Below, in pieces: positions 45,193 through 61,734 of a stretch of DNA of 64,000 bases. The position numbers and the translations under genes were made by a program. Under the pieces are notes generated by a model. It saw only the letters and a program-made list of their open reading frames with translations. It had not been told where the DNA came from and did no database searches. The stretch is from Stenotrophomonas maltophilia (GTDB taxonomy: Bacteria; Pseudomonadota; Gammaproteobacteria; Xanthomonadales; Xanthomonadaceae). Each line of letters starts with the position of its first letter. Position 1 is the first letter of the stretch. The stretch lies in contig NZ_CP033877.1 of assembly GCF_006970445.1 (NCBI RefSeq), positions 4,162,750 through 4,226,749 on the forward strand, read 5' to 3'.

Positions 45193-45218
45193 CGCGGTGT
45201 TTAGCGCTGATAGCGGCG

Positions 45219-45247
45219 TTGTCACAGAATTAACTAACCCTTATGTA
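45219..45247 (+). promoter_or_regulatory. Candidate promoter of the recombinase operon
   Basis: TTGTCA (45219-45224), 17-base spacer, TATGTA (45242-45247), about 37 bases before the first recombinase gene. It lies just inside the left island end, so recombinases at the end could also regulate it. Confidence 0.45.
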
Positions 45248-45284
45248 TCAATAGGATAGGCGCGCATATTTAGGTCCCCGGGCC

Positions 45285-47522
45285 ATGCCAAGTGTCAATG
45301 TGATCGAGTGCTTCTCGGGTTACAGCTTCCGAGCCATCTCCCCAAAGATGGAGAGCGCCCTACGGTCCGAGCAATCGACACTATCCGACGCGGATCTTAG
45401 AAAACTTGAGTGTTACCTCCAAATTACTCGGCGCCGCTTTCACGAGGGTGATTCTCGATCGCGTCAAGTCGCGGCGATTCGAGGATTCATCTATGCGCTT
45501 TTTCACGAAGAGTTTTTCCCAAACTCATCACCTTGGGCAATCGCTCGTCGCGCGGTTCAGACCTTCGGCGTTATTTATCCCGAGGAAGATTGGCCTAAAT
45601 TCCCATGCACAGCTTTTAGGAATCGTTGGCCATCTTCGTTCGCAGATCAGGTGTCGGCATTTGGAGACACATCGTTCGACAAGGAACGACTGGACTTCTG
45701 GCGGGGTTGGTCATGCACGAATAAGCAAGGGCAGAAGGTGAATTTGCGCCTACACCAGTTCTCGGAGCACTTTGGCAACTCCCGGGCACTTGAGCTTCTA
45801 GGCGCCGCAGCAACTTGGCTACGCGGAAGGAGGGCTACAAGAGCACCACTCGTCCAAGAGTTTGCAGCTTACGCCGTCCGAACCTATCCAGAAACTGATT
45901 TCAGCCGTCCATTGGACGTCTCGCGCCTAATCAGTGGGTTCTTTGAAGACTTCTTGAGAGGCGCAGCGTCAAAGGCGTACGACTTAACAAGCGCTGTCAG
46001 TCGCTGGAATTCGTTCAGAAGCATTCTCGTCGATCATCTGCTCGGGCTAAGCTGGGCAGCGCCCTCCAAGGCCGTACCATACCCGAGCGCCCCCCGCCAA
46101 GCCCCCGAATATTCAAAGATAGTCACGCTCAAAGACGGCAGTGAAGTTAAGAATTCTCTTCTTACCCCCGTACCTCTTGACCTTTCGAGTAGCCAAGCAA
46201 GCGAGCTCATTTTCAAGTCAATCAAGAACGACGTGCGGTTAGTGGAGCAGTGGGCCACGGAAGAAACACGACAGTCTTGGGAACGTGCACGGCAACGAAA
46301 GATGCTTGCGAAGCAGGGAACTCCCCATAGCGCGGGCCAGCTTGGCGTGACAACTGGAATGAAAAAACGCCGTCAAAGGCCTCATCCAGAGTATCTCATG
46401 CACGCCGCTGCGACATTTGAAGACGAGGGCCTATCCGACCCTGCCCTGGCATACGTCAAATATCCTACACCGGGATGGCTTACGGCTTGGGAGCTCGGGA
46501 TACCCAGTGACGTACTGCTCTTTGCCCACGCTTCGCTACTTATTATCGACCACCCTGAAATTACGTCGTCGCCCCTTTCCCAAATAGAGCTCTACAACAA
46601 GGACGGTCAAATGACGGGGCTCGTAGAAATCGACGGGCGACACTACTTGACCCTCTACAAGAACCGCAAAGGTCCGGATCAAGCGGAACAGCGAATCCTC
46701 CTCACCGCGCGGTGTGTTGAGGTGGTGCATCGCCTTATCGAATTGACTACTCCACTGAGAGATCATCTTAGAAGAACCGGCGACGTCAAGTGGAGGCTCC
46801 TGTTTCTCTACATCAAGTCGATGGGATCCCTGCCTCGGAGTTGGACTCCAGCTGGCTCAGCCAACTATCGCGCTCCGATCCTTGCCACGAGAATGCAGAT
46901 AATCACGGGCATAGACGAGGAAAAATCCACCCAACTTGGATGGCGCTTCACCCTAACTCGTTTGCGCGCTTCAGTCGGAGTACTGGTACTGATTAATAGC
47001 CGGTCTACTGAGGAGATGGCAAAGGCGCTGGGGCATGCAGAGTACAGGCCAGAGCTGCTGTCACGCTACATTCCGCTGCCACTACAGCAATACCTTTCCG
47101 AAAGCCTGGTTCTCAGGTTTCAAACCAGTATGGTCTGTCGCGCCTTACAAGACTCGCCACATCTCCTTGAAGCATCCGGCTTTGCGTCGATGGATGAGCT
47201 CGATCAATTCCTTAGCGAATATGCCCTTCAGCAAGTTCCGGCACATCTGCTTCCCCTGGAGAGCAGGCATGACATCCAGACGCCAGACAAAGTCGTATTC
47301 GGCGTTAGTTTGGGCGTTCTTCAAGTGCTCTGGAGCCTGGTGATCGCTGTATCCACCGACGAAGAGAGCGCATGTGGACGTGCTATCCGGTGGGCCCACA
47401 TCGGCCGCCAGCTATTCAACCATCTCGAGAGTCAGAAGGAACAGCCCGAGTACCGGAGAATTGCGGCCGAGGCGAAAGCACGTGCGAACCCTGGCTTAGT
47501 TCGGAGCATTCTCAATGGCTAG
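45285..47522 (+). CDS. Large tyrosine-recombinase-like protein (GinA-like)
   Basis: A 745-residue protein, first of the recombination operon. Only the C-terminal part shows tyrosine-recombinase features: FTLTRLRASVGVLV where H-x-x-R would be T-x-x-R, then LGHAEYRPELLSRYI with the His/Trp-box and the nucleophile-type Tyr. The missing box-II His and unclear box-I Arg suggest an accessory or divergent recombinase. The long N-terminal 400 residues may be DNA-binding. It overlaps the next gene by eight bases. Confidence 0.75.
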   Translation: MPSVNVIECFSGYSFRAISPKMESALRSEQSTLSDADLRKLECYLQITRRRFHEGDSRSRQVAAIRGFIYALFHEEFFPNSSPWAIARRAVQTFGVIYPEEDWPKFPCTAFRNRWPSSFADQVSAFGDTSFDKERLDFWRGWSCTNKQGQKVNLRLHQFSEHFGNSRALELLGAAATWLRGRRATRAPLVQEFAAYAVRTYPETDFSRPLDVSRLISGFFEDFLRGAASKAYDLTSAVSRWNSFRSILVDHLLGLSWAAPSKAVPYPSAPRQAPEYSKIVTLKDGSEVKNSLLTPVPLDLSSSQASELIFKSIKNDVRLVEQWATEETRQSWERARQRKMLAKQGTPHSAGQLGVTTGMKKRRQRPHPEYLMHAAATFEDEGLSDPALAYVKYPTPGWLTAWELGIPSDVLLFAHASLLIIDHPEITSSPLSQIELYNKDGQMTGLVEIDGRHYLTLYKNRKGPDQAEQRILLTARCVEVVHRLIELTTPLRDHLRRTGDVKWRLLFLYIKSMGSLPRSWTPAGSANYRAPILATRMQIITGIDEEKSTQLGWRFTLTRLRASVGVLVLINSRSTEEMAKALGHAEYRPELLSRYIPLPLQQYLSESLVLRFQTSMVCRALQDSPHLLEASGFASMDELDQFLSEYALQQVPAHLLPLESRHDIQTPDKVVFGVSLGVLQVLWSLVIAVSTDEESACGRAIRWAHIGRQLFNHLESQKEQPEYRRIAAEAKARANPGLVRSILNG

Positions 47523-49569
47523 GTCGAAAGCACGTCTTGCAGAAGACGTAGAAGCCATCCTCGCACCGTTCACTTCAGATCTGAAGGGTAGATACAGGAA
47601 GGCATCATGGCTTACCTCGCAATTTGACGATGAAGTGTGGACCACTACTGTCTTGGGCGCAGTAGTTATCGACTGGCGGGTGCGCCTTAACGATGGAAGT
47701 CTCCTTACTTCGCCCAAGAATACCGAGCTTCTCGAGATATTCAAGTCGTTCGCCATACTTCAAACTCATCCGGATACGAACGGTGGGCGCCTCGTATCTT
47801 CCCGCACTCAAAGCAACCAGCTGGCCAGAGCCATCCATTGCATCGACTATTTCTTGGTGCGATCAGCAGAGTTCGACTTGGCTGCCCACGGCCTGCGGGG
47901 AGTTACGAGCGACATGCTGAAGGGCGTTCTGAAGGAAATTTGTAGCGACAGGAACGTCGCAATCGGAGTTTACAGATGGCCCCGTCGGCTATCGGAGCTT
48001 GTAAGGTCCAACATTTCCAACATCGACCCAACGCAGGCTCCCCCCCCAGATGGGAGCGATGCGATCGCCGACCATCGCTTGACCGACCTTTCCGACTCCG
48101 AGATTGCCCGCGCAAGGCAATGGCTACAACGTGCGTCGCTGTACACCTACAAGCCTGGAGTGTATCGACACACGGTCAATCGAAGGGCCATCGCGCTGCT
48201 GCTCTACGCGGATACACTGGCTGGGCAGCGAACCCATCTCCCGCTACCGCATGAGCTATGCATCGATGGCTCCCCGCTCGGTGACTGCGAACTCCCCAGG
48301 GCAAAGGTCGTCAGTGGTAGTAACGGCCGCATGAGAGCTCGCCTCGCCCGCCGGTATGCAAACACTCTTGGCGGCTTCGGCTTGCTAAGTGACGAGGGAA
48401 TGGCATGCCCCCCTGTATTCGCTGACGAGATGATCTCCGCGATTGAAGAGTTCGCGCTGCAGTCAGACGGCCGATTCAAGACCCCGCCGTTCTCGGTCAT
48501 GATGATAGCGCTGCGCGAAGCCGTCGAGTTCGTGGTCAAATTTGGCGACCCCATCGTAGACACCTTCCTCGAGGCGGCGCTGGAAGCTAAAGCCAAGGGT
48601 CAAACGATCGCCGCAGTTCTAGAAGAACCCGCCTGGTTCGATCGCACGATTGGAGCCGAAGATTCGATCTCCTTTAAAGGCTGGCGCATCCTCCACGGAA
48701 GATATGCAAATAGGCGGGATTACTATCGTGAACTCCGCTCGAGCCCCGGCCTTCTTGAATGTCTCACCCTATTGCAAGGCGCAACAGAAGTGGTTGTGGG
48801 CGCACTCAGTGCACGGCGAGAAGGTGAGATCCGGAGCGTAACCCACTGCGATCCACTCGACCAAACAGAAACCCGGCTAGTATTCAAGCAGGGCAAGACA
48901 GGCAGTGGAGACTACCGAACCACAGCCTCAAGGCCGCTTGCACCTATCGGGGTCAGGTGCATAAAGCTAATTAGACGCCTTCAGAGTGGCGTGTCCCAAA
49001 TTTTCCCACAGGTAGAGTCATCAGGCCTCCCTCTCTTTGCCAGGCTAAGAGACCGAGAGCCAATTGGCTTCACCCGCCTAACATCGCCAAGCTATCGCAG
49101 AGCCATTGATCTGTTCTTCGATTGGATTCAAATCCCTTGCGATGAGACAGGTGCTCGATACTACATTCGTCAGCACCAGTTCCGCAGGTTCTTTGCGATG
49201 TTGTTTTTCTACGGCGACGGTTTCAGCAGCATTGACACGCTCAGATGGTACCTTGGCCATACGGACGCAAAGCATCTCTGGCACTACATCACTGAGTCAG
49301 TCCCGGGGTCCGTGCTGAGGTCCGTGGCTGCCGGATTCGCAACGTACCAGGTACGACATGGTACGACTGAGGCCGAAGGGCTGGCTGAAATCCTAAAGAA
49401 GGAACTTGGTGTTAGTGAGTTCTCGGTGATCGACGACGAGACTCTTTCCGCATACGTGAATCACCTCATCGAAGACGGGCTGGTCCAGGTAGAGCCACAG
49501 TTCTTGGACAATGGGAACAGATACAGGATCGCGATCATTGTTCGCGGCACGCCAGGGCTGAAATCGTAA
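47515..49569 (+). CDS. Tyrosine recombinase (GinB-like)
   Basis: A 684-residue recombinase with the full catalytic set near the C-terminus: Arg in ALSARREGEIRSVTHCD, His-x-x-Arg in IRQHQFRRFFAMLFFYG, and LGHTDAKHLWHYITES containing box His and Tyr nucleophile. A C-terminal extension of about 85 residues follows the active-site Tyr. Similar in length to TnpB of Tn554-type elements (about 630 residues). The start overlaps the previous gene. Confidence 0.85.
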   Translation: MARSKARLAEDVEAILAPFTSDLKGRYRKASWLTSQFDDEVWTTTVLGAVVIDWRVRLNDGSLLTSPKNTELLEIFKSFAILQTHPDTNGGRLVSSRTQSNQLARAIHCIDYFLVRSAEFDLAAHGLRGVTSDMLKGVLKEICSDRNVAIGVYRWPRRLSELVRSNISNIDPTQAPPPDGSDAIADHRLTDLSDSEIARARQWLQRASLYTYKPGVYRHTVNRRAIALLLYADTLAGQRTHLPLPHELCIDGSPLGDCELPRAKVVSGSNGRMRARLARRYANTLGGFGLLSDEGMACPPVFADEMISAIEEFALQSDGRFKTPPFSVMMIALREAVEFVVKFGDPIVDTFLEAALEAKAKGQTIAAVLEEPAWFDRTIGAEDSISFKGWRILHGRYANRRDYYRELRSSPGLLECLTLLQGATEVVVGALSARREGEIRSVTHCDPLDQTETRLVFKQGKTGSGDYRTTASRPLAPIGVRCIKLIRRLQSGVSQIFPQVESSGLPLFARLRDREPIGFTRLTSPSYRRAIDLFFDWIQIPCDETGARYYIRQHQFRRFFAMLFFYGDGFSSIDTLRWYLGHTDAKHLWHYITESVPGSVLRSVAAGFATYQVRHGTTEAEGLAEILKKELGVSEFSVIDDETLSAYVNHLIEDGLVQVEPQFLDNGNRYRIAIIVRGTPGLKS

Positions 49570-49579
49570 AGAGGCAGGT

Positions 49580-50125
49580 ATGAACAGACGATCTCTCCGC
49601 TCTCGCAACTCCATTCTGGCTTTGAGGAAAGTTCTTGACCGCGCGTTGATCGAGCCGGCAGAGCTTAGCCCGGAGTTGAGAAGAGCTTTGCAAACACAGT
49701 CACTTTTGGCTGCGTACCGTAGTGATGACGAGGGCATCGTGGCAATGTCATTGAACCATCAAAAGAAGATAGCCAACGATGCATTTGGCTCTTATGAGGT
49801 ACTCGATTCCCTGCGGCGGCGCGTCCTGGAAAGGACCCAGCCAATGGACAAGAGTCAGCAACGACACTCGAGCGCCACTCGGGAGAGTCAGAGGGAACGG
49901 ATCTTGGCGCTCGAGGCTATGGTGAAGGCACTCAGCCAAGACCTCTTCATTCTACAAAGGGCGTTTGATCTCCGCTGCCTTCAAGCCAGGGCCTATGCCA
50001 CCAAGGCTGGCGACGCGGAGCTTCGACAGTGCGATACGCACCAGCGGGAGTTAGAGGCCAGTTTCCGCCTCAGAACCTTGAGCCTTCCTTCCGACAAGGT
50101 CGTTCCATTACGAGGGAGGCGCTGA
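49580..50125 (+). CDS. Small helical accessory protein of the recombination operon (GinC-like/TnpC-like)
   Basis: A 181-residue basic protein, mostly helical, with a coiled-coil-like stretch ERILALEAMVKALSQDLFILQ. It has no catalytic motif. In GInt operons a small helix-loop-helix-type protein is the fourth essential gene, and Tn554 has a comparable small TnpC that affects orientation and frequency of transposition. Its place between two recombinase genes argues for the same role. GAGGCAGGT precedes the ATG; its stop is two bases before the next start. Confidence 0.65.
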   Translation: MNRRSLRSRNSILALRKVLDRALIEPAELSPELRRALQTQSLLAAYRSDDEGIVAMSLNHQKKIANDAFGSYEVLDSLRRRVLERTQPMDKSQQRHSSATRESQRERILALEAMVKALSQDLFILQRAFDLRCLQARAYATKAGDAELRQCDTHQRELEASFRLRTLSLPSDKVVPLRGRR

Positions 50126-50127
50126 CA

Positions 50128-51549
50128 GTGCGCACGGTCATAGATGGTCAGCTACATTCTCTCACCGAGGAGAACTTTAGGGTTCCTCACTTCGTCGACC
50201 ACTACGGAGTGCTTCATACCCGCAACGGGGGGAACATTCCGCTTCTATACTGGCCGGGCGGCCACTGGTGCCATTACGGGAACGCTTTCGTGCGCCACCT
50301 GATGGAGAAAGGCCAGTCAAGACGGAACAGAGGAGGGACACTTGCGGTCACGGCGTCCAACATCTCGCATCTAATCAGGTACTGCTGGAAGGAGCGGATT
50401 GACCTAATCGAGCTCGATGACAATCACTTCAGGGTGTTCATTGACGGCCTCTGTCGAGAACCGCACGCCTCCCGCAAAGGACAACTCGCCCGAAACTCCA
50501 GTACCGTGATCGCGATTGGTAGAAGCTGCCTGCAGTTTCTTTCCTACATTGCGGACGCTAGAGGAGATGTGGATTTCATCGGGCAGAACGGCAGAATTCG
50601 AGCCACATTGCCAAAAGCAGAGCACAAAAAGCGCAACAGCAGCTTGGAGCGACGGAGTAATCACGCGGCATCCGAGAGCTCTACATGGACCCATGCCTCA
50701 CTTCCCCTTCCTACTGCCAAGCGCAGGCGCTTGCCCATCAGCAGCCGAAACATCGAGCTTCTCCGGGACGCTGCCTCTCGCATCAGCACCACGGCGCATC
50801 AACGCATGCGTCGGCAGGTGATGCTCACGCTACTGGAGACCACTCTGGGGAGGCGCAGTGAGATCAATGAGATAACGCCAAAGTCGATAATTGACGCCCT
50901 GCAGATGGATGTACCGATGATTGAACTTCCGACACTAAAGCGGCGCGGGCAATTTACTCGTCAAATTCCTATGCCCAGAAGCGATCTGGAATTCATCGCG
51001 CAGTACATCACGTTCTACCGCAGTAGCGTCACGCGACGACGTCCCAGCAATACTGGCAAGAACGGTGGCCTCCTGCTGAATGATCGTACAGGCGAGCCTA
51101 TCAAGGCTGACACAATAACCGGCGAGATCCGTCTGCTGCGGGAGGCGGCGGGTATAAGTGAGCAGGCATGTGCCCATATGTTTAGGCATCGCGGGATCAC
51201 CAAATTCCTCGTGGCGCTTATCGAGCAGTATGAGCCTAAGAGTGCAGATGACTTCAGGCGGCTGCTCGTTGACATAGAGGCGCTCAAGCTGAAGACGATA
51301 GAGTTCACCGGTCACGCCGACATCTCAAGCCTCGATCCATACATCAACTTGGCCTTTGATGAGGTCACCAACTTCAAAAAGAGCTATGACCTAGTGAAGG
51401 CAAGCTGTGCCATCGACTCGTTCAGGAACTCTATCAAGGTACAGCTTTTGGAGCTTGCGCATGGCGCTTCGGCTGAACGGACAGCCGAGGCCATGGAGTC
51501 ATTGGCCAGTGCTTTACTCAGGGACCTTGGCCCAGCCCAGTCCGAATAG
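50128..51549 (+). CDS. Tyrosine recombinase (GinD-like)
   Basis: A 473-residue recombinase with SAM-like N-terminal domain (NISHLIRYCWKERIDLIELDD) and a complete catalytic set: Arg in LGRRSEINEITP, Lys-containing beta hairpin, HMFRHRGITKFLVA (H-x-x-R), EFTGHADISSLDPYINLAF (box His and Tyr). A GTG start at 50128, with GGAGG eight bases upstream, is used in place of an in-frame ATG further upstream that would overlap the small gene. Last gene of the recombination operon. Confidence 0.85.
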   Translation: MRTVIDGQLHSLTEENFRVPHFVDHYGVLHTRNGGNIPLLYWPGGHWCHYGNAFVRHLMEKGQSRRNRGGTLAVTASNISHLIRYCWKERIDLIELDDNHFRVFIDGLCREPHASRKGQLARNSSTVIAIGRSCLQFLSYIADARGDVDFIGQNGRIRATLPKAEHKKRNSSLERRSNHAASESSTWTHASLPLPTAKRRRLPISSRNIELLRDAASRISTTAHQRMRRQVMLTLLETTLGRRSEINEITPKSIIDALQMDVPMIELPTLKRRGQFTRQIPMPRSDLEFIAQYITFYRSSVTRRRPSNTGKNGGLLLNDRTGEPIKADTITGEIRLLREAAGISEQACAHMFRHRGITKFLVALIEQYEPKSADDFRRLLVDIEALKLKTIEFTGHADISSLDPYINLAFDEVTNFKKSYDLVKASCAIDSFRNSIKVQLLELAHGASAERTAEAMESLASALLRDLGPAQSE

Positions 51550-51833
51550 GTGGGCCTACCCCATGTCCGCAGACTACTCTCGCCTGTCGAGCGGAGGCAC
51601 AGCGTCCGCTACTGAGGTCCTAGTGCGCTAAGAACTTGAGCGGCGTGATGACCGTTGTAAGACCAAAGCCCCCCTGATGGCGAGCCACCGATTTCCAATC
51701 TGGCGCCCATTGCCGTATCGGGCCATTATGCGCTCGTGATCGCCAGTTAAACGCTACGGGACGGAGAAGTCCGCTCACGGGATGGCTGCCCCTTCTTCCC
51801 TCCGCACTCGCACTTGGCCACCAAAGGATTGCC

Positions 51834-53414
51834 ATGCCGATCGAACGCGTCGTCATCAACAATTTCAAGTCACTTCGCCACCTAGACTTGACCTTAAACG
51901 CACACATGAATTTGGTGGTGGGCGACAACGAGGTAGGCAAATCCACGCTACTGGAAGCTATCCACGCAGTGGTGACGGGACAGTTGCATGGCCGAAACCT
52001 GACCTATGAGCTCACGCCCTATCTGTTCCACCAACCCACGGTACGGGAATATTTCGCTGCAGTCGACGCTGGCACGCACGGGTCACCGCCGCGGATTTCC
52101 ATCGAAGCTTATTTAGGGAACGATCCCAGGCTCGCCTCGCTGCGCGGCACCAACAATTCGTTGGGCCTAGACAGCGCGGGCATTCGGCTGCTGGTCGAGC
52201 TGAATGATGACTATCGTGATGAGTTCAATGCCTACCTAAGGCAGCACCAAGGAGTGGCGAGCCTGCCGGTCGAGTACTACACGGTACGTTGGTATTCCTT
52301 CGCCAACAATGGCGTCACCGCGCGTACCATCCCGTTTGATTCGACCATCATCGACACCCACGGCATCAGGACGCTGTCCGGAGCCGATCGCTACATCGCC
52401 GGCATCATCGAACAGGCGCTGACGCCAGCGCAGCGCGTCTCGCTGTCGCTGAGTTTCCGTCGCATGCGGCAGAGCTTCTCCGAGGAAGCCGATGTAGCCG
52501 CTGTCAATGCCTACCTCACCGAGCACACAGGGGACATCAGCCACCGGGCATTGACGGTGGGCGTGGACACATCGCCGCGCTCGACATGGGAAACCAGCCT
52601 GTCACCGTACCTGGATGAGCTTCCCTTCACCCAGGCGGGCAAGGGCGAACAAAGCGCGGTCAAGATGAAGTTGGCCATGCATGCTGCAGGCGCGGCGCAC
52701 GTTCTGCTGATCGAGGAGCCGGAGAACCACCTCTCCTTCTCCAGTATGACCCAGCTGATCGACAAGATTGCAGCGCTCTCGGCGGCCCAGCAGGTGGTCA
52801 TAGCAACCCACAGCAGCTTCGTTCTGAACAAGCTTGGCGTGGACAACGTGATCCTGTTCAGCGCCCAAGGCCAGATGAAACTAGATCAGCTACCGCCCGA
52901 TACGCACGACTATTTCATGAAGCTGCCAGGCCATGACACGCTGCGGCTGATCTTGGCCAAGCAGGCGATCCTGGTGGAAGGCCCATCCGATGAGCTGATC
53001 GTACAGCGCGCCTACCGCGACCACCACGGCGTGCCGGCACTGGCCCACGGGGTGGACATCATTTCGGTCAAGTCGCTGGCGTTCAAGCGCTTTTTGCAGA
53101 TCGCCGAGCGTCTGCACATTCAGGCAAGAGTGATCACCGATAACGATGGCGATATCGCCGTGGTGCAAGAGCGCTATGCCGACTATCCCAACGCCATCTA
53201 CTACGACTCAGACGAAAGCGCGCCATCCCTGGAAGAGCAGTTGATAAAAGCCAACTCGCTGGCTGTCCTCAACACCGTGCTGGGCAAGACATTTGCCGAC
53301 GGGGTGGCGTTGCTCAAGTACATGAAAGGTCATAAAACCGACACGGCCTTGGCGATCTTTAACAGCCCTCACTCGATCAGGTTCCCGGACTATGTCCAGC
53401 GTGCTATCGCCTAA
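51834..53414 (+). CDS. OLD-family ATPase/TOPRIM nuclease (Gabija GajA-like)
   Basis: A 526-residue protein. N-terminal ABC-type ATPase: Walker A GDNEVGKST at 30-38, AGKGEQSAVKMKLA signature-like segment, Walker B VLLIEEPENHLS at about 290-300, and THSSF switch. C-terminal TOPRIM nuclease: ILVEGPSDELIV at about 378 and VITDNDGDIAVV at about 432. This order is that of class 2 OLD nucleases, which occur with UvrD-like helicases; the pair is the basis of Gabija anti-phage defence. AAAGGA precedes the ATG at 51834. It overlaps the helicase gene by 23 bases. Confidence 0.85.
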   Translation: MPIERVVINNFKSLRHLDLTLNAHMNLVVGDNEVGKSTLLEAIHAVVTGQLHGRNLTYELTPYLFHQPTVREYFAAVDAGTHGSPPRISIEAYLGNDPRLASLRGTNNSLGLDSAGIRLLVELNDDYRDEFNAYLRQHQGVASLPVEYYTVRWYSFANNGVTARTIPFDSTIIDTHGIRTLSGADRYIAGIIEQALTPAQRVSLSLSFRRMRQSFSEEADVAAVNAYLTEHTGDISHRALTVGVDTSPRSTWETSLSPYLDELPFTQAGKGEQSAVKMKLAMHAAGAAHVLLIEEPENHLSFSSMTQLIDKIAALSAAQQVVIATHSSFVLNKLGVDNVILFSAQGQMKLDQLPPDTHDYFMKLPGHDTLRLILAKQAILVEGPSDELIVQRAYRDHHGVPALAHGVDIISVKSLAFKRFLQIAERLHIQARVITDNDGDIAVVQERYADYPNAIYYDSDESAPSLEEQLIKANSLAVLNTVLGKTFADGVALLKYMKGHKTDTALAIFNSPHSIRFPDYVQRAIA

Positions 53415-54495
53415 CCGGGTGCTGCTTTCGGCCGCCGGCTCCGGCAAGACCACCTTGCTGGTCCGCCAGGCCCTAGAGCGACCGCTGCGCCGCATCGGCA
53501 TCGTTACCTACACGCTGGAGAACCTCGAAGAGATCCGGCGTTCGTTCGAGTTCCACGCCGGCGCTGTGCCCGCGCACGTCACATTGCACAGTTGGTACGG
53601 CTTTCTGCTACGCGAGTGCATTCGGCCGTATCAGGCCGCCCTTTGCCGCGAGCCACGGATCGAATCGATCCTGTTCGTCGAAGGACGGACCAACAACCGG
53701 GCGCCGCGCTCGCAGGTCGCCCGGCACTATCTCGCCGGCAATCGGATGTACTCCGATAGGGCAGCCGACTTTGCCGTTCGCTGCGACGAGTCGACTCAGG
53801 GTCAGGTCATCGCGCGCCTGGCGGACATGTACGACGAGGTGTACGTTGATGAAGTGCAGGACTTGGCTGGCTACGATCTGGACCTGATCGAACGGCTGTT
53901 GAAAAGCTCCATTGCCGTCACGCTGGTCGGCGATACGCGCCAGGCGACGTATGCGACCAACTACGCACCTCGCCACAGCCAGTTCCGCGGGCCGAACCTT
54001 GCGACTTTGTTCCAGCTTTGGGAATCTGAAGGTTTGTGCCAGATCGATCACCGCCTTACGAGTTTGCGCTGCGTGCAGGCGCTGTGTGATCTTGCCGACG
54101 CGCTCTACCCACAGATGCCTCGGACCCACTCAGGCAATGACCAAGCGACAGGTCATGATGGCATCTACCTCGTCGCGCCAGAGCATGTGACCGCTTACAT
54201 GCAGGAGTTTTCGCCGACCGTGCTTCGGCATGATCGACGACAAGCGTGCGAAGGACTTCTCGCGGTGAACTTCGGCCAGTCCAAAGGCCGCACCTATAGT
54301 CGAGTCCTCATCTTTCCAAATGGGCCGTTAACACAGTACCTGCGCACGGGAGATGCCTCCCGTATCACCGCACCCCCCAAATACTACGTGGCCTTTACCC
54401 GGGCACGGCAGAGCCTGGCATTTGTGTATGCCGGGACGTGTGCGCTGCTGGGTCACCGGCTCTATGTACCCACAGACCCTGATGGGCGGAACTGA
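53392..54495 (+). CDS. Compact UvrD-like helicase (Gabija GajB-like)
   Basis: A 367-residue superfamily-1 helicase partner of the preceding nuclease. Motif I is LLSAAGSGKTT (residues 12-21), motif Ia TYTLENLEEI, motif II VYVDEVQDLAG at about 150, motif III LVGDTRQATY, and motif VI YYVAFTRARQSL at about 330. It is shorter than typical GajB (about 500 residues) and much shorter than UvrD, so 1B/2B insertions are reduced. Its ATG lies inside the end of the OLD gene, implying coupled translation. The pair is followed by ars genes with their own promoter. Confidence 0.85.
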   Translation: MSSVLSPNRVLLSAAGSGKTTLLVRQALERPLRRIGIVTYTLENLEEIRRSFEFHAGAVPAHVTLHSWYGFLLRECIRPYQAALCREPRIESILFVEGRTNNRAPRSQVARHYLAGNRMYSDRAADFAVRCDESTQGQVIARLADMYDEVYVDEVQDLAGYDLDLIERLLKSSIAVTLVGDTRQATYATNYAPRHSQFRGPNLATLFQLWESEGLCQIDHRLTSLRCVQALCDLADALYPQMPRTHSGNDQATGHDGIYLVAPEHVTAYMQEFSPTVLRHDRRQACEGLLAVNFGQSKGRTYSRVLIFPNGPLTQYLRTGDASRITAPPKYYVAFTRARQSLAFVYAGTCALLGHRLYVPTDPDGRN

Positions 54496-54532
54496 GTCGG
54501 CTTGGTAGCCAGGAACGCTTGCGGCGTTCCAT

Positions 54533-54567
54533 TTGCATCCTACAAGGATCGTTGTAGAATGCCCGCA
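54533..54567 (+). promoter_or_regulatory. ars promoter with ArsR-type operator; leaderless start
   Basis: TTGCAT (54533-54538), 16-base spacer and TAGAAT (54555-54560) precede arsR. A perfect inverted repeat CTACAA-ggatcg-TTGTAG (54540-54557) covers the spacer and the -10 box, as an ArsR repressor operator would. The arsR ATG begins seven bases after the -10, about where transcription should start, and no ribosome-binding site is present, so the message is probably leaderless. Confidence 0.65.
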
Positions 54568-54914
54568 TGAACGATGATTCCGCCGTGCTAGCGCTCTCTG
54601 CGCTTGCTCAGTCTGACCGCTTGGCCGCATTCAGGATGCTGGTTCGGGCTGGCCCCGAAGGCATGCCGTCCGGCGAAATTGCCGAGGCTCTCGCGATCGC
54701 ACCGCCGCGCATGAGCTTCCACCTCGCGGCTTTGGAGCGTGCGGGATTGCTGCGCTCGTGGCGCGACGGACGGCGTGTTCTGTACGCCGCGAGCTACGAG
54801 CACATGCGACAGCTTCTAGCGTTTCTCACTGAGGACTGCTGCGCCGGGACACCGGAGATCTGCGGTGACCTCTTCACACTTGGCAACCCGTGTACTTCGG
54901 AGACCTGCCCATGA
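54567..54914 (+). CDS. arsR: ArsR-family repressor
   Basis: A 115-residue winged-helix repressor: EIAEALAIAPPRMSFHLAALERAGLLRSWRDGRRVLYAAS is the ArsR HTH and wing. The As(III) ligands are not the E. coli type (no CxC in the HTH helix); instead a Cys-rich C-terminus (DCCAGTPEIC..NPCTSETCP) provides candidate thiols, as in other ArsR subtypes with C-terminal binding sites. Its stop overlaps the start of the next gene. Confidence 0.93.
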   Translation: MNDDSAVLALSALAQSDRLAAFRMLVRAGPEGMPSGEIAEALAIAPPRMSFHLAALERAGLLRSWRDGRRVLYAASYEHMRQLLAFLTEDCCAGTPEICGDLFTLGNPCTSETCP

Positions 54915-55441
54915 GCCCTCCTCAACCCTTCAACGTCCTGTTCCTGTGCACCGGCAATTCCGCCCGGTCTATCCTGGCCGAGAGCGTCCTGCGCAAGCTT
55001 GGCGATGGCCGCTTCAACGCGCACTCGGCCGGCAGCCATCCCAAGGGTGAGGTTCACCCGCTTGCGATCGAGACGCTGCGTCAGGCCGGCTATCCAGTCG
55101 AGGGCTTGCGCTCCAAGGCGTGGGATGAGTTCGGCGTGCCGGATGCCCCGCGCATGGATTTCGTGTTCACCGTCTGCGACCAAGCCGCCGGCGAGACCTG
55201 CCCGTTCTGGCCGGGACAGCCGGTTACCGCGCACTGGGGCATCGAGGACCCTAGCCACGAAACGCGCGGCGACAAGTGGCAGCGCGCCGCCTTCCGGCAG
55301 GCGCTGGTGTACATGGAGAACCGTATCAAGGCGTTCGTGGCGCTACCGATCCACACGCTGTCGAAGGCGACCTTGACAGCGCAGATAGGCGACATCGGGC
55401 AGTTCGAGGGCACCACGTCGCCCCGACCCGGCGTGGCTTGA
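54911..55441 (+). CDS. arsC: Arsenate reductase, low-molecular-weight phosphatase type
   Basis: A 176-residue arsenate reductase of the LMW-PTP fold. P-loop FLCTGNSARS has the catalytic Cys13 and Arg19. The resolving Cys region HSAGSHPKG.. and VFTVCDQAAGETCPFWPG carries two further Cys used in the thioredoxin- or glutathione-type relay. Conserved Asp in EDPS. Length a little above the S. aureus pI258 ArsC. Overlaps arsR by four bases (ATGA). Confidence 0.92.
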   Translation: MSPPQPFNVLFLCTGNSARSILAESVLRKLGDGRFNAHSAGSHPKGEVHPLAIETLRQAGYPVEGLRSKAWDEFGVPDAPRMDFVFTVCDQAAGETCPFWPGQPVTAHWGIEDPSHETRGDKWQRAAFRQALVYMENRIKAFVALPIHTLSKATLTAQIGDIGQFEGTTSPRPGVA

Positions 55442-55451
55442 GGGAATCATC

Positions 55452-55862
55452 ATGACGCTGACGATCTACCATAATCCTGCCTGCGGCACGTCCCGAAATA
55501 CCTTGGAAATGATCCGCCAGTCCGGCGAAGACCCTAAGGTCATCGAGTACCTGCAGACTCCGCCGACCCGTGAGAAGCTGGTCGAGCTGATCGGCGCGAT
55601 GGGCATCGCGCCTCGCGATCTCTTGCGCCAGAAAGGAACGCCCTTCTCGGAGCTGGGCTTGGGCAATCCCGCGCTCACGGATGACCAACTGGTGGACGCG
55701 ATGATGGCGCACCCCATCCTCATCAACCGTCCCATCGTGGTTTCCGGCCGGGGCGTAGCGCTGTGTCGGCCATCTGAGAAGGTGCTGGCGCTGCTGGAGA
55801 ACCCGGTGTCTTCCTTCACCAAGGAAGACGGCGAAATTGTGACAGCCGGAGCGCCGTTGTGA
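55452..55862 (+). CDS. arsC: Arsenate reductase, glutaredoxin-dependent type
   Basis: A 136-residue ArsC of the E. coli R773 type, unrelated in fold to the preceding reductase. The catalytic Cys11 is in [13 protein letters not shown]; a conserved Arg triad is suggested by [20 protein letters not shown]. Uses glutathione and glutaredoxin as electron donors. Presence of both reductase types in one operon means two redox couples can feed arsenite to the exporter. Its stop overlaps the arsH GTG start. Confidence 0.93.
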
Positions 55863-56584
55863 TCGATCGCGTTGCCGCAGATCTGCCAAACATCGACCCC
55901 GCTCAACTTGCACCGATCGACGTCGACGCCCTAACAGGCGCCGGCGACCCGGGCCATCCGCCGCGAATCCTCATCCTCTACGGCTCGCTGCGGGAACGTT
56001 CCTATTCGCGGCTGCTCGCGGAGGAGGTCGGTCGGCTCCTGCGCTGGTACGGCTGCGAGGTGCGCATCTTCGATCCGCATGATTTGCCACTGCCCGACGG
56101 CGCCTCTCCCGATCACCCGAAGGTGAGCGAGCTTCGCAAACTCGCTTACTGGTCCGAGGGTATGGTCTGGGTCAGCCCAGAGCGCCATGGCGCCATGACC
56201 GCCATTATGAAGGCGCAGATCGACTGGATACCTCTGGCCGACGGCGCCAAGCGACCCACACAAGGCAAGACTCTGGCCGTCATGCAGGTTTCCGGCGGCT
56301 CGCAGAGCTTCAATGCAGTGAACCAGCTTCGCGTACTCGGCCGATGGATGCGCATGGTGACCATTCCTAACCAGTCCTCCGTGGCCAAAGCCTTCCAAGA
56401 GTTCGATGAGGCCGGGCGCATGAAGCCATCAGCCTACTATCAGCGTGTCGTTGACGTATGCGAGGAGCTGGTGAAATTTACCTGGCTCGTACGCGGACGC
56501 TCAGCCTACCTGGTCGATCGTTACTCCGAGCGCGTTGAGAACGCCGAAGATCTGTCCAAGCGCGTAAATCAGCGCTCCATCTAA
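55859..56584 (+). CDS. arsH: ArsH flavoprotein
   Basis: A 241-residue NADPH-dependent FMN reductase that oxidises trivalent organoarsenicals or helps against oxidative stress. FMN-binding loop [19 protein letters not shown], the ArsH block [26 protein letters not shown], and [25 protein letters not shown] are typical. GTG start overlapping the ArsC stop. Confidence 0.95.
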
Positions 56585-56601
56585 CCCCGCCGGAGCGCTG
56601 C

Positions 56602-57906
56602 ATGCTTGCCCTCGCGATCTTCATCGCCACCCTCATATTTGTCATTTGGCAGCCTCGCGGGCTCGGCATAGGCTGGTCGGCACTGGCCGGCGCCGCCGTT
56701 GCGTTGGCCACCGGGGTTGTCGGCTGGAACGATGTCGGCACGGTATGGGGAATTGTCTGGGATGCGACGTTCACCTTCGTCGCCCTCATCATCATCTCGC
56801 TCATCCTCGACGCCGCCGGGTTCTTCGCGTGGGCGGCTCTGCATGTGGCCTGCTGGGGCGGCGGCAATGGTCGGAAGCTTTTTCCGCTCATCGTTCTGCT
56901 TGGCGCTGCGATTGCGGCAGTGTTTGCCAACGATGGCGCGGCTCTTCTACTGACGCCGATTGTTCTTGCCATCTTGTTGCGCTTGAACTTTCCGCCTGCA
57001 GGCGCGCTGGCGTTTACTGTGGCCTGCGGCTTTATCGCAGATACGGCCAGCCTGCCGCTCGTGGTCTCTAACCTGGTCAACATCGTTACGGCGAACTTCT
57101 TTGACGTATCGTTCGGGCGCTACGCCGCGATCATGGTACCGGTGAACCTGGTATCGGTCGGAGCTACCTTGGTTGTCCTATGGCTCTGGTTCCGTCGCGA
57201 CATCCCAAGCAGCTATCCAGTCCATGATCTCGAAGCACCCCGTGACGCAATACGCGACATGGCAGTCTTCCGCACCGCCTTGCCCCTTCTCGCAGTGCTA
57301 CTGGTTGCGTACTTTGTAACCGGCCCGCTCGGCGTACCCATAGCCTTGGTGACGGGGGTCGCTGCTCTGGTGCTGATGGGTGTTGCAGGCCGCTGGGCAA
57401 CCGGTGGCCGAGGCGCCACCATGGCCGTGACCCAGATCCTGCGTGACGCGCCCTGGCAGATCGTGCTGTTTTCGATCGGCATGTACCTGGTGGTCTATGG
57501 ACTGGGCAATGCCTGGTTGACCGACGTGGCAAGCGCGGTCTTGGAGTGGCTGGCAACGCAGGGCAGCTTCATGGCGACCGTTGGCACCGGCTTCGCGGTA
57601 GCTGCGCTTGCCTCCATCATGAACAACATGCCGGCAACGCTGGTCGGTGCGCTTGCCATCGACGGGGCAAACGTCCCCGCAGCCACCCGCGAACTGATGA
57701 TCTATGCCAACGTTGTGGGCAATGACCTCGGCCCCAAGCTAACCCCGATCGGGTCGCTGGCGACCCTTCTGTGGTTGCACGTCCTTGGCGGGAAGGGCCA
57801 ACGGATTACGTGGGGGCAGTACATGAAGGTGGGGCTCATCCTGACGCCCCCCGTCCTGTTGGCCACGCTCATCGCGCTCTGGATCTGGCTGCCGTTTGCC
57901 CGATAA
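56602..57906 (+). CDS. arsB: Arsenite efflux protein ArsB
   Basis: A 434-residue inner-membrane arsenite/antimonite exporter with about 11 or 12 hydrophobic segments. Signature sequences are LDAAGFFAWAALHVA, FANDGAALLLTPIVLAIL, ADTASLPLVVSNLVNIV and NNMPATLVGALAID. No arsA gene is present, so it works as a secondary (proton-linked) exporter. Last gene of the ars operon; 17 bases after arsH. Confidence 0.95.
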   Translation: MLALAIFIATLIFVIWQPRGLGIGWSALAGAAVALATGVVGWNDVGTVWGIVWDATFTFVALIIISLILDAAGFFAWAALHVACWGGGNGRKLFPLIVLLGAAIAAVFANDGAALLLTPIVLAILLRLNFPPAGALAFTVACGFIADTASLPLVVSNLVNIVTANFFDVSFGRYAAIMVPVNLVSVGATLVVLWLWFRRDIPSSYPVHDLEAPRDAIRDMAVFRTALPLLAVLLVAYFVTGPLGVPIALVTGVAALVLMGVAGRWATGGRGATMAVTQILRDAPWQIVLFSIGMYLVVYGLGNAWLTDVASAVLEWLATQGSFMATVGTGFAVAALASIMNNMPATLVGALAIDGANVPAATRELMIYANVVGNDLGPKLTPIGSLATLLWLHVLGGKGQRITWGQYMKVGLILTPPVLLATLIALWIWLPFAR

Positions 57907-58412
57907 CCGCGTTAGCACCACACAGGCAAGCCGCAGAGATCACAATTTCTTCAAGGGCGCCGCCGTGGGCGGCGGCGGCACCGGCCCCGGGTCGTTGAAC
58001 GAAAGCACCACCTGATCAATGTTGAATTGATCTGACAACACCTAGGCAATCACAGCGTGCACCAGGTCAAGGTCAACCGCGGGGGCAGCCACCGTGATGG
58101 TGGCCGCGATCGCGCGGCCAGGCGGCTTGCCCGGGACCAGCCGCAGATCGTCTACCGCCTTCACGCCTGGGTCGGTGAACATCGCCGCCCGGACCTCTTC
58201 CAAGTTGAGCTCGTTCATGAGCTTGGGGACTCCTGGATGATGCGATCGCCGCAGCTGGCCCGGTCGCGATGCAGCCAACGCGAAGCGCAGGTGCGGATCT
58301 GTGCTGATAGCCTTTGGGGTTGGAGCGCTATGGACCAGCGTTGTGGAAAGCACAATCCAACCCGCCGGAGGCTTCCGCAGCTATGCCGAACGGCGATGTA
58401 AGCGTCCTGCAG
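57907..58412. other. 506-base interval after arsB, with a possible small gene remnant
   Basis: No strong gene. A minus-strand frame 58042-58218 encodes 58 residues (MNELNLEEVRAAMFTDPGVK, then AVDDLRLVPG), which recalls the C-terminal domain of cation-diffusion-facilitator proteins (GVxxVHDLxxW) but lacks the rest; it may be a remnant or unrelated. AGGAG lies some way before it. A CAATGTTGAATTGATCTG segment near 58018 looks AT-richer. Confidence 0.3.
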
Positions 58413-58973
58413 TCAACTGCCTAGACCCAGGCCCCAATCACATATGAACTTCTCCTGCTCGCGCGTCTCGACCGCACCCGGCCTCACCTGTCGAACCATG
58501 CGTATGGCCTGCTCGCCAGTGGTGGCCATGCCTGTTCCTAACAGCAACAAGCAGGCTACGGTGCCAGCTCGTCCTAGCCCACCCTTACAGTGCACAACCG
58601 CCCGGCCTCCTCGCAGTAACTCCTGACTGAGTGCTGGGCCCAGTTCACGCCATGCCTCCAAGAAAGCTCTACTGGGAGCTGCGCCGTCTGCGATTGGGAG
58701 CCCATACCACTTGATGCCCTGCGCCATGGTCCGCTCGGGAAGCGCGGCAATCCTAAGCTCATCGAACTCCCATGGCTCTATCAGAGAGATCAAGTACCCC
58801 GCCCCCCATTGGCGAATCGTGGAAAGGTCCACGTCAATGTCACGATTCCACGCCCCCGTCATCGCGAACTCTTGAAATTTCCCGGGCGCGAAAGTTATGC
58901 CTACTGCGCCACCGCTGATTCCAACAGCGAGCGTAGCGATATGAAGTGGATGCGTGTGGCTAGTTCTGCACAT
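58413..58973 (-). CDS. CDKN3-like dual-specificity phosphatase-type protein
   Basis: A 186-residue protein of the cysteine-phosphatase superfamily, closest in pattern to the CDKN3/KAP group. The P-loop VHCKGGLGRAGTVACLL has the H-C-x5-R signature. A general acid region GLPIADGAAPSRAF precedes it. An upstream TTG would add eight residues, but the ATG at 58971-58973 is preferred. Its target is unknown. Cys-phosphatase-like genes are found near arsenic clusters on other islands, but a role in arsenate handling is conjecture. Confidence 0.8.
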   Translation of the reverse strand: MCRTSHTHPLHIATLAVGISGGAVGITFAPGKFQEFAMTGAWNRDIDVDLSTIRQWGAGYLISLIEPWEFDELRIAALPERTMAQGIKWYGLPIADGAAPSRAFLEAWRELGPALSQELLRGGRAVVHCKGGLGRAGTVACLLLLGTGMATTGEQAIRMVRQVRPGAVETREQEKFICDWGLGLGS

Positions 58974-59125
58974 AGTGAAACCCCATCGCGGGAACAAGAG
59001 AGCCGTAGCGCAGCGCGCCTACCCATGCTGCCTGTGACGATCTGTAATCACTCCAGCGGACCGCTCAGGATTGGGGCGCCGGACAGCACAGCAAAGGTGA
59101 TCCTTTTGCCTGTCGCAGGCAACAA

Positions 59126-59191
59126 GTACCAGTAGGCTCACGCTGCATGCGTACCAGTAGGCTCACGCGTGGGCGTACCAGTAGGCTCACG
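59126..59191 (+). repeat. Three direct copies of a 17-base motif (GTACCAGTAGGCTCACG)
   Basis: The 17-mer occurs at 59126-59142, 59151-59167 and 59175-59191 without mismatch, at spacings of 25 and 24 bases. It lies just before an HAD-like gene. Iteron-like arrangement suggests a protein-binding site (operator), or a tandem duplication during decay. Confidence 0.85.
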
Positions 59192-59253
59192 TGATGGACA
59201 GCGGAAGTTTACCGGAGCAAGGTGTATATCCGCCCATCCACCAGAAGCTGCAC

Positions 59254-59697
59254 ATGAAGCCAACCATCCTGGCTTTGGACCTTGAGGGAACGCTCATCTC
59301 CAACGCAGTAAGCCAGATCCCAAGGCCCGGTCTCTTCCGTTTCTTGGAAGACGTCCAATTGCACTTCAGCCAGCTCATGATGTTTACGACGGTGCCCGAA
59401 GAGCGCTTTCGCAACATCGCCAACTTATTGGTTCATGAGGGAAGCGCACCTCCATGGTTTGCGAGCCTTCATTACATCGATTGGACGGGTAACACCAAGG
59501 ATCTGCGGCTAGCCGCACCGCATCTAGGTGAGGCTTTGCTACTAGATGATCATGGCCCCTATGTACACCCAGGGCAGGAGCATCTCTGGGTGCGGATACC
59601 ACTGTTTGCATCTCCCTATGCGCCAGAGGACGATGGACTGGCGATCGCATTTGGACTATTGCTTGATCGCATCAACTCAACGAGTAGCTTCATCTAG
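59254..59697 (+). CDS. FCP1/NIF-like HAD phosphatase
   Basis: A 147-residue protein of the HAD superfamily, NLI-interacting-factor type. Motif I is LALDLEGTLI (D-x-E variant of DxDxT), motif II-like MMFTTVPEERF, and motif III GEALLLDDHGPYV with an acidic pair. The second motif I residue Glu replaces Asp, which may lower phosphatase activity. The ATG at 59254 puts motif I at residue 8; an upstream ATG at 59194 would add 20 residues and start within three bases of the iteron array. No partner gene known. Confidence 0.75.
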   Translation: MKPTILALDLEGTLISNAVSQIPRPGLFRFLEDVQLHFSQLMMFTTVPEERFRNIANLLVHEGSAPPWFASLHYIDWTGNTKDLRLAAPHLGEALLLDDHGPYVHPGQEHLWVRIPLFASPYAPEDDGLAIAFGLLLDRINSTSSFI

Positions 59698-60080
59698 GCG
59701 TCGCTCCAAACAAAGCTAGAGCCCCAAGCCAAAGCGACGGGTACTCTAGGTCGTTCAGAAGCCTCCTCGTACTGCCAAGAGATCCTGTACGACGCCTCCG
59801 TCAAGCGGGATGAACTTGCCACGCAGTGGTGCAGCGCTTCCACAGTTAGTTCCCGACTCGGGTCGTCGTTGCCCAACGGTAGTGACCCGGCCGGTCAGCT
59901 GCGCGGAGCCGGCCAACTACTCGGCGTCTATGTCACGAAGTCAGCGCCCAGCTATCGCCACCTAGACTGGCAGTTCGGTGCGGCTGGCGAGCCTATCGAC
60001 CATTTGGCAGAGATATTGTCAGTACTTCGCGAATTTGGTCCGTTCGAGATCGAGTCTGACGGACTAGCTCGCAGCAATGA

Positions 60081-60212
60081 TTGGGTGAGGCTGAGTGGTT
60101 CCTCTCACCGCACGCATTGCTCGAAGGCGTCGCCCCCGCCGAAGCCCTGGCCACCGATCCGGCACGCGTGTTGCGGGCGGCCCGTAGCGAGTTCGAGCAA
60201 GGTAACTCATAG
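60081..60212 (+). pseudogene. Fragment of an MbcA/ParS-type antitoxin (Xre-antitoxin toxin-binding domain)
   Basis: A 43-residue frame starting at TTG reads GEAEWFLSPHALLEGVAPAE and continues to PARVLRAARSEFEQGN before its stop. WF-x2-P-x2-L-x-G-x2-P and VL-x-AAR match the conserved C-terminal part of DUF2384 antitoxins of RES/Xre and MbcTA systems. The preceding stop codon at 60078-60080 separates it from an overlapping frame at 59869-60309, so the N-terminal part is missing or frameshifted. No toxin gene is seen nearby. Confidence 0.55.
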
Positions 60213-60367
60213 CTACGGGACCGATTCTCTTCGCTGGAAGCGCTCAAATCACCGCTTTGAGGCCGGGATAAACGCTACGCCAGAGTCAGCCGCAGGCTTG
60301 AACTATTGACCATCAGTAATAGAACTAGCAGCCACGCCATGATGGCGGCACGATGCTAATCCACGCG

Positions 60368-60637
60368 TCACCGAACTGGAAAGACACGCATAGTCTTCCA
60401 CTCAGACATCAGAAGCGTGCTCGCCTCGGCAGCACTCATGCCAAGAGCCGAGGTCAGCCTGAGGTACTCGAGCAAGTCCAACCTCCGGGCACCAGCCTCA
60501 ATGGAGGAGATGGTCTGCTGAGGCCAGTCCAGGCGTGAGGCAAGCGATACTTGGCTAATTCCCAAAGCCTCCCGTCTCGCTCGAAGTTGCTCTACGAGAC
60601 GCCGATACGCTTCTTGGTAGATCGTCTTGGTTGCCAT
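60368..60637 (-). CDS. XRE-family helix-turn-helix regulator
   Basis: An 89-residue phage-type repressor-like protein: RRLVEQLRARREALGISQVSLASRLDWPQQTISSIEAGARRLDLLEYLRL contains the complete HTH_3 domain (SQVSLASRLDWPQQTISSIE). Start at the ATG 60635-60637 (MATKTIYQEAYRR). It diverges from the unknown gene at 60760 and probably controls it. Confidence 0.85.
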   Translation of the reverse strand: MATKTIYQEAYRRLVEQLRARREALGISQVSLASRLDWPQQTISSIEAGARRLDLLEYLRLTSALGMSAAEASTLLMSEWKTMRVFPVR

Positions 60638-60759
60638 TCCGCCCACTCGTGGAAGCGGACAGCAATCTATGGTCCATCCTTGCTTTACACGAAAATCATG
60701 TAGACAGCCCAGCTGGCCGCTCGGTAAGATCACTCACTGGTAGGAGCCCTTGGAACTGA

Positions 60760-61566
60760 GTGCGCCATGGCCTTGACCAACCGACCCTCTCGACTCCAAG
60801 GCCAGACTTGGCCTCTCTGGTCGCGTCTCTTGGCCCCTACTACTCGTGCCTGTGGTGTGCGCTTGAAGACTCTGTCACAAGGAATGCGCCAGTCGCCTCA
60901 GATGACGAGCCTGTGCGGAGTTTGCTACGAAGCCTCCAAGCGGCAGGAGTAGTGCTGGCAAATACGAGCGAGTCTTCGTCCACTCGAAGGTCGCTTTACC
61001 ACCCTATCTCTTGGACATACTCTCCAGCGTGGGATGCTCACCCAGCCCTTCGTGGCGCAATAGCCCTTGCCCTGAGGAGCTGGCAAGGGCCAGCCCATAC
61101 GGAAGCTCGGGTCGCTCTCTGGGGGCGGCTTGTCAACGACGAGATCTCTGCCTATTTGGCAAACATCCTTCGACGGCACCGAGTAAGTCCAGAACGGGCA
61201 GACGGCGTCATCGCAATGCAAGAAAGCCCGTGGTTCAATCTCAGTTCGGGCAGACGGCGATATGTCGTTTGGTCGGGGATGCGTGTGGCAGCGAGTGTCA
61301 TGTTGCAGACAGGGATGGATGAAGTGGCAGCCATACAAGCCCTGGGTAAAGAGATGCAACTTAGGTCGCGATGGCTTCAGCGACGTGAGCAAGAAGCTAG
61401 ACTGGGCCCCAGAGAGTTCTGCTTCTTGCCCAATGCCGACTGGCGCAGCCCCATAGTTATTGAAGTCGCGCTAGAGAGCCTCTTGGGATCGAACTGTAAC
61501 TACTGGACCCTGTGCCCTTCCGCATTACGTCTTAGAGACGAGGCAAGATCTAGCCGTCAGCTTTGA
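60760..61566 (+). CDS. Hypothetical island protein
   Basis: A 268-residue protein of unknown family, starting at GTG (MRHGLDQPTLSTPRPDLASL) with GGAG about 12 bases upstream. Soluble, Arg/Trp-rich, with repeats of a WxxLxN type pattern such as ALWGRLVNDEISAYLANIL and QESPWFNLSSGRRRYVVWSGM. It is the last gene before the right island end and is divergent from an XRE regulator. No function can be assigned. Confidence 0.55.
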   Translation: MRHGLDQPTLSTPRPDLASLVASLGPYYSCLWCALEDSVTRNAPVASDDEPVRSLLRSLQAAGVVLANTSESSSTRRSLYHPISWTYSPAWDAHPALRGAIALALRSWQGPAHTEARVALWGRLVNDEISAYLANILRRHRVSPERADGVIAMQESPWFNLSSGRRRYVVWSGMRVAASVMLQTGMDEVAAIQALGKEMQLRSRWLQRREQEARLGPREFCFLPNADWRSPIVIEVALESLLGSNCNYWTLCPSALRLRDEARSSRQL

Positions 61567-61604
61567 GAGGATCGATCACATCAATCTTGGTTCCAGCGAG
61601 CTGC

Positions 61605-61732
61605 GTAGGCAACTACATCGTGCTGCCTAACACTTAGTATTGTGTCATCGTTGCGCAACCGGTGTAGGCAGCACAGACATCGCGTCTCACCGGGGCTTGC
61701 GATCATGCCAATGGAGAGCTTCCAGCGCAAAA
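61605..61732. repeat. Right island end with inverted TAGGCA motifs
   Basis: Gene-free end of the island. GTGCTGCCTA (61620-61629) and TAGGCAGCAC (61665-61674) form a perfect 10-bp inverted repeat, and a third TAGGCA occurs at 61606-61611. The terminal GCTTCCAGCGCAAAA (61718-61732) resembles, inverted, the left-end sequence TTTAGCGCTGATAGC. These are candidate recombinase-binding sites. This gap belongs to the short 3' end described for GInt elements. Confidence 0.55.
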
Positions 61733-61734
61733 TT

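Follow-up and report, generated by a model that had tools for sequence, protein, structure and literature searches.

Mobile elements repeatedly target comM, whose product helps bacteria make use of foreign DNA. Tn6022 and Tsy both require the Walker B sequence of comM (PMC10293859), elements with a CF65_00446-like integrase lie in comM of several species (PMC4774983), and diverse elements occupy comM in Acinetobacter (PMC11472951). Tsy consists of three essential genes, YRec-HTH-TnsF, with TnsF (which has a zinc-finger N-terminus) as the target selector (PMC10293859). Tn6022/AbaR elements, which are Tn7-like, insert in comM with cargo and encode TnsA, a transposase, TniB, TniQ, and TnsF. GInt islands comprise, in the order ginA-ginB-ginC-ginD, genes for two integrases and a large hypothetical protein and a small gene beside the cargo (Bardaji 2017, PMC5385486); they are bounded by imperfect direct repeats of 10–17 nt and excise as a circle, for which the four genes are needed, and their published targets are ssb, an ABC transporter gene, and a ribonucleotide reductase gene (PMC5385486). 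Strand-biased circularizing elements (SEs), represented by SE-6283 and SE-6945 on pSEA1, carry four kinds of protein gene in the order intA-tfp-intB-srap and circularize with strand bias and no empty site, and Tn554 has three genes, for a small factor and a pair of active recombinases, with a 6-base footprint (PMC10214605). Here we analyze a 64,000-nt stretch of Stenotrophomonas maltophilia (assembly GCF_006970445.1, contig NZ_CP033877.1, positions 4,162,750–4,226,749, forward strand; hereafter the window), in which an island interrupts comM. We conclude that this island inserts at one exact site, is not a GInt, and belongs to a widespread family marked by a four-gene recombinase module; from its gene order, C-B-D-A, we name the family CBDA.

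The island extends from 45194 to 61732 of the window (16,539 bp; 58.2% GC versus 66.7% in window 1–37000) and interrupts comM between nt 904 and 905, directly 3′ of the Walker B codons. The 5′ part of comM (44290..45193, + strand; Mg_chelatase/ChlI; codons 1–301 plus one base) corresponds to nt 1–904 of intact comM, tracking the gene of the relative G017 (locus L002; 95% identity) up to nt 904 at window 45193, and the 3′ part (61733..62328, + strand; assigned by family match and alignment to intact comM) picks up at nt 905 at window 61733 and forms the remainder of the gene. The intact comM of G017 reads TTCCTCGATGAGC/TTCCAGAGTGG at the joint; in the window the left half ends GATGAGC at 45193, and TTCCAGAGTGG starts again at 61733. 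Joining the flanks in silico gives a single open reading frame (ORF) of 499 aa with no internal stops, identical to G017 ComM at 489 of 499 residues, with the joint at VLFLDE/LPEW. Comparison of the window junctions with intact comM revealed no target duplication at nt 904/905. The original prediction, made from the sequence of the window, of one insertion at 45193–61734 immediately after Walker B, with comM pieces in frame and jointly of normal length, is therefore upheld by an exact empty site in a relative: its borders lie within 2 bp of those measured, and the comparison it proposed with intact comM of relatives fixed the crossover.

The two ends of the island form an inverted repeat once they are offset by 6 bases (TTTAGCGCTGATAGCGG versus TTTTGCGCTGGAAGCTC, 12/17 matches); an agreement as good as this was seen in 4 of 20,000 random pairs drawn from the island interior. 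At the left, the attL hexamer GCGGTG (45194..45199) stands at the host edge, a non-comM sequence where G017 has TTCCAG, followed by TTTAGCGCTGATAGC; the left terminal repeat is TTTAGCGCTGATAGCGG (45200..45216). The right terminal repeat paired with it is GAGCTTCCAGCGCAAAA (61716..61732), and the right end, TTTTGCGCTGGAAGC when read inward, adjoins native comM with nothing between; the attR hexamer TTCCAG (61733..61738) is native by comparison with intact comM. The 6-base offset of the ends thus leaves the far end with the native comM hexamer and the gene-bearing end with the foreign one. The attR side was read for two elements, the second being a comM element of equal layout in the congener G054 (left GATGAAC, CCCATC, TTTAGC; right CTTAGCGCTTG; ends 11/17 alike), and both share GATGARC, 6 bases, and TTTAGC. 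As a separate observation, window 61716–61725 (GAGCTTCCAG) repeats the comM target exactly over 10 bases, at a distance of 7 bases from the right border within the island.

Four genes on the + strand follow the left end: C745 (45285..47522), B684 (47515..49569), D181 (49580..50125), and A473 (50128..51549, taken from an in-frame GTG at 50128), with the sizes (745, 684, 181, and 473 residues) already given by the original prediction. A473 is an ordinary tyrosine recombinase with a full catalytic set (PF00589, 2.2e-9, and motif alignment), and B684 is a large tyrosine recombinase with a full R-E-K-HxxR-H-Y set by motif alignment; D181 is a small protein for which family searches and locus comparison gave no family. 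C745, B684, and D181 have no Pfam or NCBIfam match, and solved structures searched with the C and B profiles yielded no matches. Across the family, R, E, K, the first His, and Tyr of B are present in 86/86 non-gap rows, the second Arg in 87/87, and the second His in 83/86; in A these residues are present in 82/82 rows and the second His in 80/82. In C the Lys, second Arg, and Tyr are present in 81/81 rows and the second His in 76; the place of the HxxR His holds no His in all 81, and the first-Arg stretch has no conserved Arg. C thus appears by motif to be a degenerate tyrosine recombinase; since its resemblance to the recombinases tested is not clear, this identity rests on motif spacing.

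A scan of a species-genome collection with the B alignment gave 144 stretches, which were reduced to 111 relatives, of which 80 were kept. With iterated profiles, the detected genes stand in C-B-D-A order on one strand in all 80 loci, and none lies on the other strand. Each gene is one ORF in 65 loci (among these, C is truncated by the start of a contig or present as a fragment in L113, L145, L155, and L156); in the other 15, ORFs are split or a gene is lacking. The order is also present on four plasmids of Pseudomonas and Providencia. A protein search with B684 found at least 5 homologs (8000 candidates scored), and the genome scan yielded many more. Among 91 genomes of the genus, B684 has relatives in three and A473 in four, one of them marginal; in G054, a module of the same order occupies the same comM bond (identity C 30%, B 33%, D 37%, A 37–41%). 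The literature within reach, which excluded subscription papers and supplements, yielded no account of a C-B-D-A family, so that one may already be in print. A phage origin was rejected: there is one weak viral-contig relative, and the joined-ends pattern occurs in no viral contig.

The comM element of G054 encodes a predicted phosphoethanolamine–lipid A transferase (L028, 16690–18399; NF028537 above cut-off; under all MCR cut-offs), and on the Providencia plasmid NZ_CP145930 (L035; typed conjugative) the CBDA module is flanked on one side by a class A beta-lactamase gene and on the other by umuDC. The modules of L101–L104 (Thalassolituus, Colwellia, Neiella, and Acinetobacter records) have near-equal scores, which suggests that they may have spread recently; in L101–L103 a beta-lactamase-like ORF, recognized by eye, stands ahead of the module.

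The upstream neighbor was judged in 67 of the 80 loci, the other 13 having too little upstream DNA. The module adjoins the comM 5′ half, cut at the same codon, in 13 loci: Polaromonas, Methylophilus (3), Paucimonas, Curvibacter, Methylotenera, Vibrio (4), Photobacterium, and Kordiimonas, hosts that we take to cover alpha-, beta-, and gammaproteobacteria. This count leaves out L125, where a reversed comM, interrupted at codon 301, lies on the far side. At attL, host sequence ends in GAYGAR in 13/13 comM loci, followed by seven bases and a terminal motif, which is TTTRRC or TTTAAA in eight and of the AATCC/AGTCC type in five Vibrionaceae (L143 and L159 were read without an exact hexamer border). 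In a tree of 84 B proteins, the comM users are spread over several parts, with weak deep support.

The sequences show the junctions and terminal repeats, the catalytic residues kept, the order of the genes, and the repeated use of one codon; for the reaction itself we propose the following. A and B would cut six bases apart at the inverted terminal repeats, producing a circle whose joint consists of arm, hexamer, and arm; C, aided by D, would recognize the DNA for the ComM Walker B strand, so that the reaction is placed after GAYGAR. In the inserted state, attR, at the gene-distal end, would then hold the native comM hexamer, and attL, at the end that bears the genes, the hexamer brought by the element. 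We consider it probable, at roughly 80%, that the island belongs to the CBDA family and integrates site-specifically by this mechanism.

Several results weigh against it. Among the recombinases and accessory proteins tested, none is clearly similar to C or D; the attL hexamer of L142, TGCCAT, looks near native comM and breaks the foreign-hexamer pattern; and a class sample searched with A473 at E 1e-10 recovered 1 of 369 genomes, the window's own. Moreover, 40 of the 67 judged loci adjoin other or unclear sequence, and 14 adjoin one helicase family, recognized by eye as HrpB with no family search run. The cut could be placed in nine of these 14 (all but L117, L121, L122, L126, and L134), in each case directly before RSLDADL, a sequence that presumably comes after a DExH motif in HrpB. 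Islands in hrpB of P. aeruginosa have been mentioned (PMC8373256). A shared kind of target motif, Walker B in comM and DExH in hrpB, is only suggestive. On a wider proposal our judgment is evenly divided: that CBDA elements may form a class of multi-recombinase transposon of their own, with the degenerate C as target selector; that several unrelated element classes (CBDA, GInt-type, and, from published work, Tsy) may have converged on one comM motif across proteobacterial classes; and that a CBDA sub-group may use the hrpB DExH region instead.

Within the genus, comM is interrupted in 15 of 91 genomes (G104, G016, and G090 are set aside for deletions or draft breaks, and G096 is placed from coordinates alone), at three places used by several element types. 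The gene is cut near codon 281 in G022, G091, G094, the left side of G051, and part of G068; after codon 301 in G000, G054, G005, G042, G004, the left sides of G058 and G096 (the latter by coordinates), and the right side of G051; and near codon 342 in G085, G014, G043, G068, and the right sides of G058 and G096. The G068 insert near codon 281 looks like Tn6022, because its predicted proteins include TnsA-like, Mu-type transposase, TniB, TniQ, and TnsF-like proteins, the last with 12 CxxC motifs; the codon-281 inserts other than that of G068 were examined in less depth, with a TniQ relative present in G094. G005 and G042 carry four-gene modules (373-540-600-127 and 405-538-594-120) at the exact comM bond of the window island, pointing into the insert from the 3′ side of comM with ends that begin TTAGG, and G004 has a truncated one. 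We term these modules only GInt-type, because they agree with the E. coli GInt in gene order and protein lengths but show slight similarity (GinA 44% probability, others <5%). Near codon 342, G085 has a diverged CBDA module, inverted relative to comM, and G043 a strongly diverged 605-747-170-385 set. Other observations at comM concern G068 (L070, 14424–19351), where a 468-aa integrase and a 1,176-aa Integrase_2 (PF13009) protein adjoin the gene near codon 342; G058 (L072), where a 1,212-aa ORF lies in a place like that of this Integrase_2 protein; and G021 (L030), where additional comM fragments lie ~11–23 kb ahead of intact comM, as if scars of older insertions. Walker B of comM is not a new target, since Tn6022 and Tsy were already published there (PMC10293859); the original prediction of a second, independent use of the hotspot understated the extent of that use.

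One comparison to weigh is with GInt, which the original prediction had favored on the grounds that the module matched the ginABCD layout. The island does resemble GInt in having three recombinase-like proteins and a small one, site specificity, and defense cargo, and the GInt-type modules of G005 and G042 use the same comM bond. A reference GInt was sought at E. coli ssb (5,806 places in 5,376 records; among the 60 records listed, four had the downstream part separated from ssb). NZ_CP093919 has a 415-512-677-139 set (A-B-C-D) and then avs4 directly after ssb, and NZ_CP124400 has the same genes; this island was taken as a GInt because its site, order, and sizes fit the published account (PMC5385486), and not from a label. 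Comparison of the module with the Gin proteins of this one E. coli GInt was divided: GinA resembles A473 (hhalign 96.6%), whereas GinB, GinC, and GinD have no relative in the window module. The window layout, with a degenerate recombinase first, the small gene third, and an ordinary integrase last, is C-B-D-A as in 80/80 loci, rather than A-B-C-D. Both termini of the E. coli GInt carry CCGTTCT, whereas inspection of the window island's ends by eye, with no formal repeat search made, showed no such direct repeat. With gene order, Gin similarity, and end repeats all failing, we reject GInt membership, and a GInt (Tn6571-like) with rearranged genes is very improbable.

Descent from an SE whose intA moved to the operon end (Tfp-IntB-Srap-IntA) is compatible with the preferred CBDA explanation, and we regard it as possible but not likely. 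The module has A last, unlike the intA-first order of SEs, but its lengths fit SE-6283 (tfp 773, intB 731, srap 165, intA 467), and imperfect inverted ends with a 6-base spacer are common to both. A resembles SE IntA (hhalign 94.9%, 4.5e-8) and B weakly resembles SE IntB (P 6e-4; hmmsearch 1e-3); D matches SE-6945 Srap at best marginally (hmmsearch E 0.006–0.012 in a 20-protein set) and gives nothing by hhalign. In profile comparison with the two SEs used, C had no similarity to Tfp and D none to Srap, and the hexamer polarity is opposite, the attB hexamer of SEs being at the gene-bearing end (PMC10214605) and that of the window at the far end. A Tsy or Tsy relative would explain tyrosine recombinases with a small HTH protein at the comM Walker B target (PMC10293859), where the window island also lies; we give it scarcely any credence. 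Compared by its published description only, Tsy differs from the window module in its YRec-HTH-TnsF content and zinc-finger selector (PMC10293859); among the 344 rows for the four module proteins, none has two CxxC motifs, versus 12 such motifs in the TnsF-like protein of G068, which itself shows no match to the CBDA module. Tn554 shares with the module two active recombinases, a small factor, and the 6-base footprint, but has no C (PMC10214605). A Tni/Tn7 transposon such as Tn6022, already discounted by the original prediction, is rejected: no TnsA, transposase, TniB, or TniQ was found among the island ORFs searched, there is no target duplication, and the Tn6022-like insertion seen in this genus lies near codon 281.

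Beyond the module, the island carries defense and arsenic genes, as the original prediction held. The Gabija pair consists of GajA (51834..53414, + strand; PDLC00098, 2.3e-285) and the UvrD-like GajB (53392..54495, +; PDLC00140, 8.8e-182). It is followed on the + strand by arsR (54567..54914; NF033788 above cut-off), an arsenate reductase of the low-molecular-weight phosphatase type (54890..55441; PF01451, with TIGR02691 below cut-off; searched from 54914), a glutaredoxin-type arsC (55452..55862; TIGR00014 above cut-off), arsH (55859..56584; TIGR02690, 1.9e-119), and arsB (56602..57906; PF02040, 1.9e-136). The remaining ORFs encode a tyrosine/dual-specificity phosphatase-like protein (58413..58997, − strand; family search), a NIF/HAD phosphatase-like protein (59191..59697, +; below the Pfam cut-off), a helix-turn-helix protein (60368..60733, −; family search), and a 268-aa protein (60760..61566, +) with no match in family or defense-system searches. 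Gabija is exchangeable cargo: DNA 77–84% identical occurs in 17 other genomes among the 91 of the genus (15 near full length, two as short pieces), within a comM island in G068 and far from comM in G005 and G085. Cargo was accordingly rejected as evidence of element family.

Mobile elements have been proposed to block transformation and so escape removal (PMC4774983, PMC11472951). The island would drop the second half of ComM, such that heterologous DNA would be recombined poorly during transformation, and the island may benefit by being shielded from replacement. CBDA adds to the elements known to disrupt comM and bears on this proposal; it also offers a large, testable family for learning how the work of a single integration reaction is divided among several recombinases, and in what way a degenerate member might choose the target.

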